From Synechocystis sp. PCC 7509 (GTDB lineage Bacteria > Cyanobacteriota > Cyanobacteriia > Cyanobacteriales > Chroococcidiopsidaceae): a stretch of 64,000 bases of DNA. The notes beneath the pieces were generated by a model, which saw only the letters and a program-made list of their open reading frames with translations, searched no databases and was not told the DNA's origin. Shown in pieces: positions 21,331 through 28,070 of the stretch (positions are counted from its first letter, which is position 1; every line of letters starts with the position of its first letter). The stretch is taken from NCBI RefSeq assembly GCF_000332075.2, contig NZ_ALVU02000001.1:248001-312000 (forward strand), written 5' to 3'. The translations under genes were made by a program, and so were the position numbers.

Positions 21331-21818
21331 TCAGATATAGCGGCAATTATCGCAATGTCCGCAACGGGTATTTGCTGCTTCAGTTGTAAAACCAAAGGCG
21401 TTTAACAGATATTGCCAACGACATTGTTTAGTTGTCAGATATTTAACCATTTGTTGAACGGCGGGAAATTGCGCGGGAGGCTGAATTTTTACGGGTGGGT
21501 GAATTTGGTAATGAAATGGATCTAAAAATTCTAATTGATTAGCACTAGCAAGTAGAGAAAGTGCGATCGCATTTTCTAAATTTACTTCTCCTTGAATTGG
21601 CAGCTTTTGGGCGAGTTTTTGGGCGCTGGAATAGTGCGATCGCATTTTTTCCTCAAAAAACCTCTGTCTTTGTTTATCCTCCGAGTCTAGCCACCCTGTA
21701 GGTTCGCTAACAAGCATTAAAGCGATACTATCTTCGCCATCTCGTCCCGCGCGTCCAACTTCCTGCACGTACTCCGATAATAATAATGGCGCGTGAAAAT
21801 GCACTACCCAACGCACAT
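21331..21818 (-). pseudogene. recQ: RecQ helicase, 3' part (after the insertion)
   Basis: This is the C-terminal 160 or so codons of a RecQ-type ATP-dependent DNA helicase. It starts at [10 protein letters not shown], followed by [15 protein letters not shown], helicase motif VI. A zinc-binding Cys pattern ends the protein (CRWQY...RCGHCDNC). The N-terminal half lies at 28063-29007. Between them is a 6.25-kb element. The frame is also open about 25 codons into the element to an ATG at 21894, so a short fusion could be translated. On its own the fragment lacks Walker A and B. Joining both halves at the shared octamer restores the gene without frame change. Confidence 0.9.
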
Positions 21819-21830
21819 TATTTATAGCTG
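21811..21830 (+). repeat. Left end of the recQ element (attL)
   Basis: The core ACGCACAT at 21811-21818 is followed, five bases inward, by ATAGCTG (21824-21830). The right end has the same layout in inverted orientation (core, five bases, ATAGCCG). This suggests paired recombinase-binding arms around the crossover site. Confidence 0.7.
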
Positions 21831-22121
21831 AATTGCTGAAAGCCTTACACAGCAATAATCTTAACTTGTATACGTGTATATAAAGTAAAGGCATCGTTGA
21901 AGCCTAGTCTTCTAATTGTAAAGTAATATATAGTGCTAAGATCGCAGCCTACCCTTTAGCAGTACACTTGTACTAGCAAATATAGTGTCTGTTTGGTGCT
22001 GCTAAAATTGATTAAAAGCTGTCAGTATATTACATACCTGTGATGCAATGTCTTGTAAGCGTAGTAATCTTACCCGTTTATTTGTTTCGCATTTCGCTCC
22101 TTATTTTTAGAGAGAACTAAA

Positions 22122-22556
22122 GTGGATAAAAAGGTTGAGCGGTGGTTCCCGCTTTTAATAGGGGTTTTAACTGCTGCTTTTTATATATATTTCTTGCGTA
22201 ATTACTTTCTGCCTAGTTCAGTGAAAGACCTTTTTTCCTCTACTATGCAGATCAGCAGTATTTTAATAGGTTTTTTAATTACTGCTCTATCAATTTTAGT
22301 TACTATAGAAGATAAAAAAATTATTCAGCAGCTTAAAAGAATGGGCTTATATAATAAACTACTTAATTATTTTATGGATGCCACTAAATGGTCTTTTTGT
22401 TTGGTTATTGCTAGTTCTATTGGCTTACTAATAAATTTTGATGTTCAGCAAAGCTGGCATTCTTCAGCTTTTGCTGCTTGGTTGTTTGTACTTACAACTA
22501 CTATGTCTTCTTGTTATCGAGTAATTGATATTTTTGCTGATATAATTCGTTCTTAA
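22122..22556 (+). CDS. Four-helix membrane protein (element cargo)
   Basis: This 144-residue protein starting at GTG has four predicted membrane helices at about residues 9-28, 44-62, 92-110 and 116-136. A charged loop (EDKKIIQQLKRMG) separates helices two and three. No signal peptide, enzyme motif or transporter signature is seen. It is convergent with the 293-residue gene at 22584, their stops being 27 bases apart. Small four-helix proteins next to a soluble partner are common in phage-defence modules (KwaA of Kiwa is an example of the layout), but no homology is claimed. Confidence 0.7.
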   Translation: MDKKVERWFPLLIGVLTAAFYIYFLRNYFLPSSVKDLFSSTMQISSILIGFLITALSILVTIEDKKIIQQLKRMGLYNKLLNYFMDATKWSFCLVIASSIGLLINFDVQQSWHSSAFAAWLFVLTTTMSSCYRVIDIFADIIRS

Positions 22557-26840: not shown

Positions 26841-27921
26841 TTAAGCGCTCTTCTAAATAGCTCTGATAGGCTTCTTTCAGGTCGTTTAAGGTCAAATGTG
26901 TATAGGTATCAATAGTGGTTTGGATACTAGCGTGTCCTAAACGTTTCTGGACGTAGGACATCTCCATGCCGCTACGAATGAGTTCTGTCGCGTGAGTATG
27001 TCTAAACATATGGGGCGAGGCTTCAATTCCCACATCCCTAGACAAGCGCCGAAATAGGGCTTGAATAGTTGAGTAGTTAAGTGGGTAGCCTATCTTGCCT
27101 TCCCAGATATTGATAAACAGATAGTCTGAGTCAATATCTTCTGGGTACTCAAGGGTGATGTACTCCGAGTAAAGGCTCATTAGCTGCTTAGAGACATGAA
27201 TTGTATAGGTTTCTCTTGTCTTTGCTCTAGCGCTATTAGCATTGTCGTCTCTAGGTACAATTTGAATTTCGTTGTCCCAAGAACGAATGTCCTCATGTCT
27301 CAAACCTAAAGCCTGCCCAATTCGCATTCCGGTTTCATGCAGCAGGCAAACAAGAAACTTATCTCGAATGCGCTTACACGCTTGAGTTAGCTGCTCAGTT
27401 TGCTCAAGCGTGTAAGTTTTGGGTAACTTCTTAGGTTGCTTGAGCTTTAAAAGTCTCGTGCGTGTCTCTTTACCTTTATTGATGTGGTGGAGAAATGACT
27501 TGTATTTCTTCCCTAGTTGGAACTGATTTTTGTAGGCATCTATCCCCTCTGTATTGCCTATTCGCTCGTGATAGTCGTAGAAACTACAAACAACTGAAAG
27601 CATCGTGTTTATTGTACTTTCTAGCCGTCTTGACTCCTGCTCATGAATGAAAATTACTCTCGGATCTGGTCTTCGCAGCCAGGAAATAAAGTCTGCTAGA
27701 TTCTCTAAGTTAACTTCAGTCCAATCCAGTTCAGAATCTCGCAAGAACTCCCAGTAAAGCTTGAGGTGATTGGCGTAAGAGTGAATGGTGTTTGGCGATC
27801 TCTGTAGCGATTCCAAATACTTTAAGTAAGACTTGATTGGCTCAACAAAGCGATTGTTATCATCCAAAACTACCCAAGTTACCTTTTCACTGTTAGGCAG
27901 CCTAATTCTTTGTACCTTCAC
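26821..27921 (-). CDS. tnpA: TnpA-like tyrosine recombinase (Tn554 family)
   Basis: A tyrosine recombinase of 366 residues from the GTG at 27921 (the frame is open to a TTG at 27939). A SAM-like N-terminal domain holds YLKYLESLQRSPNTIHSYA. The catalytic domain has Arg in TGMRIGQALGLRHEDI, HMFRHTHATELI, and LGHASIQTTIDTYTHL ending with the Tyr. All catalytic positions are intact, so it is probably active. It starts about 140 bases inside the right att core, in the recQ direction, and could be read from the recQ promoter. First gene of tnpABC. Confidence 0.9.
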   Translation of the reverse strand: MKVQRIRLPNSEKVTWVVLDDNNRFVEPIKSYLKYLESLQRSPNTIHSYANHLKLYWEFLRDSELDWTEVNLENLADFISWLRRPDPRVIFIHEQESRRLESTINTMLSVVCSFYDYHERIGNTEGIDAYKNQFQLGKKYKSFLHHINKGKETRTRLLKLKQPKKLPKTYTLEQTEQLTQACKRIRDKFLVCLLHETGMRIGQALGLRHEDIRSWDNEIQIVPRDDNANSARAKTRETYTIHVSKQLMSLYSEYITLEYPEDIDSDYLFINIWEGKIGYPLNYSTIQALFRRLSRDVGIEASPHMFRHTHATELIRSGMEMSYVQKRLGHASIQTTIDTYTHLTLNDLKEAYQSYLEERLNDGTKL

Positions 27922-28050
27922 AATTAATATAAATAACAATATATTTAGTATACATTGTTTACGTTAAATAAAAGTAGTGTTTTATGTGTAAATAAAGAAA
28001 TAAATTTGTTGTTGTTGTATTCTTTAAATACTTAGAATACGGATAGCCTA

Positions 28051-28070
28051 CGGCTATGTTTTACGCACAT
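28051..28070 (-). repeat. Right end of the recQ element (attR)
   Basis: The core ACGCACAT (28063-28070) is followed inward by five bases and then ATAGCCG (minus strand). That heptamer is the start of a small hairpin, ATAGCC-GTA-GGCTAT, at 28043-28057. The mirrored motif at the left end is ATAGCTG. The hairpin itself has no counterpart at the left end. Confidence 0.7.

Follow-up and report, generated by a model that had tools for sequence, protein, structure and literature searches.

The recQ locus and its interruption

In the 64,000-nucleotide stretch of Synechocystis sp. PCC 7509 DNA that we analysed (the window), a recQ gene is interrupted by a 6,252-bp segment, with direct repeats of ACGCACAT at both junctions (Table 1). 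The repeat identity at the two recQ junctions is exactly 8 nt. These are the only two forward copies of the octamer in the window, which contains one copy on the reverse strand, at 9984. The earlier note described an octamer-bounded split with perfect rejoining of the frame, and this was borne out: in silico excision of the 6,252 bp yields one open recQ frame of 474 codons without a change of frame. The insertion lies at recQ codon 313, and the Pfam Helicase_C model is divided accordingly, with model positions 4-85 in one recQ part and 81-110 in the other. A 187-aa open reading frame that covers the 3' part starts within the element, at 21894.

The octamer by itself is weak evidence because chance 8-mers common to the two recQ segments are frequent, there being 28 such pairs with the ACGCACAT pair among them. 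The telling point is that the octamer is placed exactly where an intact RecQ must join, and the insertion into recQ is confirmed as both real and precise. The octamer that had first been noticed is indeed present, but comparison by eye with the junctions of four related elements (G083, G032, G155, and G248) indicates that the core is most likely 7 bp long (ATGTGCG on the gene strand) and that the match at the eighth base is probably a coincidence.

Table 1. Features of the interrupted recQ locus (window coordinates).
Feature	Position	Strand	Details
recQ 5' part (DEAD domain and most of Helicase_C)	28071..29007	-	Frame closes 2 codons past the core (...HVRKT, stop)
Octamer ACGCACAT, tnpA-proximal junction	28063..28070	.	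Putative 7-bp core 28064-28070, gene strand ATGTGCG
tnpA-proximal terminus TAAAACATAGC	28053..28063	-	In relatives TTAACAACAGC, AAAACAACAGC
tnpA, tyrosine recombinase, 372 aa	26821..27939	-	Pfam Phage_integrase 1.4e-37; 45.8% identity to L144 counterpart
tnpB, tyrosine recombinase, 528 aa	25254..26840	-	Pfam Phage_integrase 3.2e-31; 43.0% identity to L144 counterpart
tnpC, DUF6262, 168 aa	24755..25261	-	Pfam DUF6262 3.5e-12; 35.7% identity to L144 DUF6262 gene
Cargo: winged-helix (MarR-like) putative regulator, 270 aa	23631..24443	-	Pfam MarR_2 27.4 bits, cut-off 27
Cargo: DUF6731 protein, 293 aa	22584..23465	-	Pfam 3.6e-30
Cargo: 144-aa protein, hydrophobic by eye	22122..22556	+	No Pfam or NCBIfam match
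Distal terminus TATTTATAGC, imperfect inverted copy of opposite end	21819..21828	+	In relatives TATCTATAGC
Octamer ACGCACAT, distal junction	21811..21818	.	Putative 7-bp core 21812-21818
recQ 3' part (motif VI and zinc-binding region), core included	21331..21818	-	187-aa ORF starts inside the element at 21894
Tn554-type element body	21819..28063	-	6,245 bp; 6,252 bp with one core

Organization of the element

The three recombination genes form one co-oriented array on the recQ strand, and the first two overlap at 26821-26840. Two Phage_integrase proteins followed by a DUF6262 protein, in the order tnpA-tnpB-tnpC, place the recombinases in the Tn554 TnpABC kind, as the earlier note had proposed; its statement that both retain their catalytic residues is also upheld, as the R, HxxR, H, and Y columns do not vary in any of the 32 aligned rows of TnpA or of TnpB. 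The two termini, judged by eye, look like imperfect inverted repeats.

When the cargo was compared with a defence library, there were weak matches alone, mostly to HTH parts, and none for the DUF6731 protein. No resistance gene was recognised in the cargo with Pfam, NCBIfam, or the defence library, and an Rfam scan gave no match. At 23532-23600 (minus strand) there is a tRNA-like sequence whose acceptor and T stems are complete and whose anticodon loop is unusual. ARAGORN reports it at a relaxed threshold, and it is absent from the standard ARAGORN run and from Rfam; it is possibly a decayed tRNA carried as cargo.

The short recQ in relatives

The earlier note had let its reading stand or fall on an uninterrupted recQ in related strains, and such genes are readily found: all 30 of the recQ loci read at the DNA level, from the best-matching relatives among 149 genomes (the window's own genome being one of the 149), are continuous through the window's insertion codon. 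By our own count of rows, 127 of the 149 genomes, again including the window's, have one near-full-length recQ match across that codon. Within the genus, G003 has the gene order pheS-recQ-acetyltransferase as in the window without the element, and in G002 pheS adjoins an intact recQ. The recQ genes of G001 (65% complete) and G093 end at a contig end and are uninformative on insertion, and the recQ match of G028 contains internal stops.

The interrupted gene does encode a RecQ helicase, as was first noted, but it is a short recQ paralogue and not the sole recQ of the cell, since the same genome encodes a second RecQ of 730 aa (NCBIfam TIGR01389, 753 bits against a cut-off of 640). In another member of the genus, G004, the short recQ (L135, L136) is cut at two contig ends with the middle unassembled. 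At these ends the sequence is TTCARGGGGCGA, and 9 bp, CAAAATACC, are duplicated, from which the gene appears to have been broken by an insertion sequence. We rejected the notion of an essential recQ in light of the second full-length RecQ and this broken copy. Several near-complete genomes (e.g., G087, G116, G118, and G143) have a single recQ match with an E-value typical of the long RecQ, and to judge from E-value rather than match position, they appear to lack the short gene.

Both recQ halves in the window are open, with no stop and no frameshift. Since the split from G002, the window lineage has accumulated 27 synonymous and 7 non-synonymous changes in recQ, compared with 26 and 13 in the uninterrupted G002 lineage, such that the window gene is no looser. 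This low non-synonymous share could reflect either continued use of the gene or a recent insertion, and the data fit both equally. With the element inserted, the short RecQ is most likely inactive because motifs I-V are separated from motif VI and the zinc region.

A clade of related elements in recQ and comM

The six nearest elements form one clade, with support of 1.000 in a tree of 32 rows and 99/98 in a tree of 14 of those rows. Three members (the window, G083, and G032) lie in recQ and three (G155, G367, and G248) in comM. The G083 element, from another family, is at the same recQ codon as that of the window, and the G032 element is at the recQ Walker A motif (codons 46-48); the three comM elements occupy one site, just before the Walker A motif. 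An element in G088 is found in comM at another site and falls outside the six-member clade. In G267, a congener of G083, recQ is intact and reads ATTGTCG at the site, exactly as in G083. The two genes are 80.1% identical in the N-half and 76.6% in the C-half; in comparisons with three other genomes, the similarity of the G083 C-half is 1 to 4 points below that of the G267 C-half, in which we see no clear sign of decay in G083. In the elements of G083 (L074 9634-10170) and G248 (L117), tnpA is separated from the nearby terminus by a MerR-type gene; the two genes are similar, Pfam supports the G248 copy, and the window element has no such gene.

Both ends could be read in five clade members, the far end of the G367 element being beyond its contig, and we placed the core boundaries by eye on the five junction pairs. 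The 7-bp cores (tnpA side / far side, on the tnpA strand) are equal in three of the five: the window (ATGTGCG / ATGTGCG), G083 (ATTGTCG / ATTGTCG), and G155 (AAATTAA / AAATTAA). They are unequal in the other two, G032 (ACGGGTG / AGTGCTG) and G248 (AGATGCA / ACAGGTA). Unequal cores are the footprint reported for Tn552-II, in which the tnpA-side core is from the target and the far-side core from the donor (PMC12486829), and for SEs, in which the cores are 6 bp long and the donor core is carried to the far side (PMC9345347, PMC10214605). The identical cores of the window alone do not show this 'brought-in' footprint of Tn554.

Two simple histories were considered and rejected: a unique event, given the related element that G083 has at this recQ codon, and the inheritance of one recQ-specific lineage, as neither tree makes sisters of the window and G083 elements. 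An AU test gave p values of 0.034 when the window and G083 elements were forced together and 0.037 when all three recQ elements were, although this test is a weak one, using 14 of the 32 rows and groups that were defined with a first tree already in view.

The clade is sparse in the genomes sampled. TnpA relatives were found in 23 of 388 genomes of the order at E<=1e-95 and in 15 of 149 relatives at E<=1e-60; at E<=1e-150, TnpB was matched among 386 genomes of the phylum only in the window's own genome (G000) and G032. When the G083 TnpB was used as the query (E<=1e-130), 4 of the 27 genomes of its family matched, the best being G083 and G248. At E<=1e-40, TnpA has matches in 164 plasmid records, none of which reaches 60% identity and the first of which are Nostoc and Calothrix plasmids, and a scan of genome contigs returned one distant match, in Bacteroidales.

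Targets of the wider family

We read the tnpA-side flank of 33 element copies, and the right ends of five elements in full and of the FtsK-like and RecD-like cases in part. Helicase or ATPase genes account for 10 of the 33 flanks: recQ (3), comM (4), and one each of FtsK-like, RecD-like, and DnaB-like genes. Six of these calls are supported by Pfam, the G248 comM was read by eye, and the three recQ cases were identified with tblastn, supplemented by Pfam for the window. Four copies end in genes read as IS605-type TnpB, three of them in one genome, and the one such target given to Pfam returned a Cas12f1-like TNB match; one copy each is in a PLD-like gene (below the Pfam cut-off) and a PAS-like gene (by eye). 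Because 17 of the 33 flanks are without an assigned gene, some for want of flank length, we do not claim that the wider family targets ATPases. In Stanieria cyanosphaera PCC 7437 (L084, L086, and L088), three Tn554-like copies each follow an IS605-type-like TnpB gene cut near its zinc-finger end, one of which was checked by Pfam.

Interpretation of the insertion

Taken together, the gene array, the catalytic residues, the precise junctions, the uninterrupted recQ of relatives, and the sites of related elements make it very likely that the element is an ordinary Tn554-type site-specific transposon residing in a dispensable short recQ paralogue. By analogy with Tn552-II and the SE literature, TnpA and TnpB, with TnpC, would make a circular copy carrying the tnpA-proximal core. 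This copy would then recombine with the target, such that the target core stays on the tnpA side and the donor core goes to the far side. With ATGTGCG as the core on both sides in the window, the copy that served as donor probably occupied a site with this core too, for which the simplest candidate is the equivalent recQ codon of a relative. The cell keeps the 730-aa RecQ when the short gene is interrupted, and occasional excision could restore the short recQ; nothing suggests that such excision is programmed. SEs are reported to leave no empty site, a point that had not yet been tested for Tn554 by 2023 (PMC10214605).

The earlier note had likened the element to those that interrupt nifD, fdxN, and hupL, and a regulated element of this type would be excised under some condition, such as stress or the formation of survival cells, to restore RecQ. 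The exact reading frame on removal and the two intact recQ halves with their low non-synonymous share are in keeping with this, and Hilton et al. 2016 discuss such triggers in unicellular cyanobacteria and list a recQ case (PMC4874684). We nevertheless rejected it as the main reading and consider it very improbable: no gene of the host reaches the nifD family cut-off (45 bits against 653.55), the second RecQ is intact, a tnpABC array stands in place of one xis, and the recQ of the congener G004 is apparently broken by an insertion sequence. Moreover, target genes and sites differ among members of the clade, and with cores unequal in two of five, exact restoration of the gene is not a conserved property. 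The element has the look of a mobile element that targets particular genes, and not of a developmental switch.

The same intact halves could be read as a RecQ made in two polypeptides. Its own promoter would then serve the N-part, and translation of the C-part would begin within the element, at the in-frame start codon that opens the 187-aa frame. The purifying pattern would suit this arrangement, yet the break is inside a single helicase domain (Helicase_C), a poor place to split an enzyme, and in G083 the C-part frame begins with another leader and TTG; we regard such a split enzyme as extremely improbable. That the element is a dead remnant, an old immobile insertion in a pseudogene recQ, would be in line with there being a single complete copy of the subfamily in the genome, where the only other near match is a tnpB fragment on C3. 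Against this, the three tnp genes are intact, as are the terminus and core at each end, and neither recQ half has a stop or frameshift, making decay of this kind quite improbable. The C3 fragment (G000:C3:183003-183872; L009, L013), on a plasmid of the same genome, is about 50-51% identical to the window TnpB and is perhaps the remnant of another Tn554-type element.

Tn554 targets radC, and one may ask whether the choice of such genes is adaptive in the sense that breaking recQ, comM, or radC lowers the recombination with incoming DNA that would delete the element. This would add to the transposon reading rather than compete with it, and we think it possible but doubtful. All six clade members found lie in recQ or comM, at three sites, and the host has a ComEC-family gene with an open frame of 745 aa; its comM is an open frame of 508 aa. 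Croucher et al. 2016 interpret mobile elements in comM and radC in this way, proposing that elements disable competence genes, including comM, and so avoid deletion by transformation, with radC insertions mentioned with less certainty (PMC4774983). A 2024 study reports that interruption of comM lowers transformation in Acinetobacter and that recQ is among the Legionella genes whose variants accompany non-transformability (PMC11472951). On the other hand, the sites of broader relatives include IS605-type TnpB genes and flanks without an assigned gene, and conserved motifs in conserved, dispensable genes would be good targets without any benefit from a knock-out. The further proposal that a cyanobacterial Tn554-type subfamily specialises in DNA-recombination genes, switching between recQ and comM at conserved ATPase-motif codons and gaining by crippling its own deletion through host recombination with incoming DNA, is one that we put forward tentatively and think unlikely as it stands; such a conflict reading of the choice of recQ and comM is attractive but speculative.

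Whatever drives it, the clade repeatedly enters recQ and comM, and two of its elements are at the same recQ codon in different families. It is a natural series of att sites from which to learn how recombinases choose and switch targets, and it allows one to test directly whether mobile elements escape removal by disabling recombination genes.

Comparison with known systems

The earlier note knew of no description of such an element in recQ. An interruption of recQ is in print: of the three elements that Hilton et al. 2016 list for non-heterocyst cyanobacteria, one is in recQ and has a serine recombinase (PMC4874684), and we read it as the helicase-gene case of Synechococcus PCC 7502 named there. 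For a Tn554-type interruption of recQ in cyanobacteria, we found no earlier report in a search mainly of literature outside subscription journals. The finding adds a member to the Tn554 kind, with a host phylum and a target gene that we did not find reported for it and with an instructive history of target switching in its clade; it is not one of a new class of developmental element.

The nifD, fdxN, and hupL elements also split a gene in frame between short direct repeats, but they have one xis, of serine or tyrosine type, and are excised in differentiating cells; in place of the single xis found at one end of nifD-type elements, the window has the tnpABC array. RIT elements (recombinase in trio) share the feature of three co-oriented recombination genes but encode three tyrosine recombinases, whereas the third gene here is DUF6262. 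The same genome has RIT-like trios at C2:36626-40759 and C2:196904-201037, on one plasmid and with equal scores, and at C3:153705-158108 on another plasmid. SEs use two tyrosine recombinases with a TnpC-like partner and a short core moved from the donor to the far side (PMC10214605, PMC9345347). Their gene set, intA-tfp-intB-srap, has a fourth gene, tfp, between the recombinases, for which the overlap of tnpA and tnpB leaves no room.

The closest resemblance is to the Tn554 family (Tn554, Tn552-II, Tn6188, and others, inserted in radC or another att). As a stand-in for Tn554 itself we used L144, a Tn554-like array on an Exiguobacterium plasmid that has the same gene order with DUF6262 third, to which TnpA, TnpB, and TnpC are related at the identities given in Table 1; a JAB-domain gene beside it is, on our reading, of the RadC type. 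Tn554-type elements are known mainly as carriers of resistance genes in Gram-positive bacteria, with radC as the classic target. A 2023 paper names Staphylococcus and Enterococcus as the sole reported hosts of the three-protein systems (PMC10214605), although similar arrays were described earlier in Actinobacteria (PMC3414803). The element described here, known from sequence alone, differs in its cyanobacterial host, its recQ target (comM in others of the clade), and its cargo, but shares with the family the tnpA-tnpB-tnpC(DUF6262) array with two RHRY tyrosine recombinases, a putative core of 6-7 bp, insertion into a conserved gene, and imperfect inverted ends.
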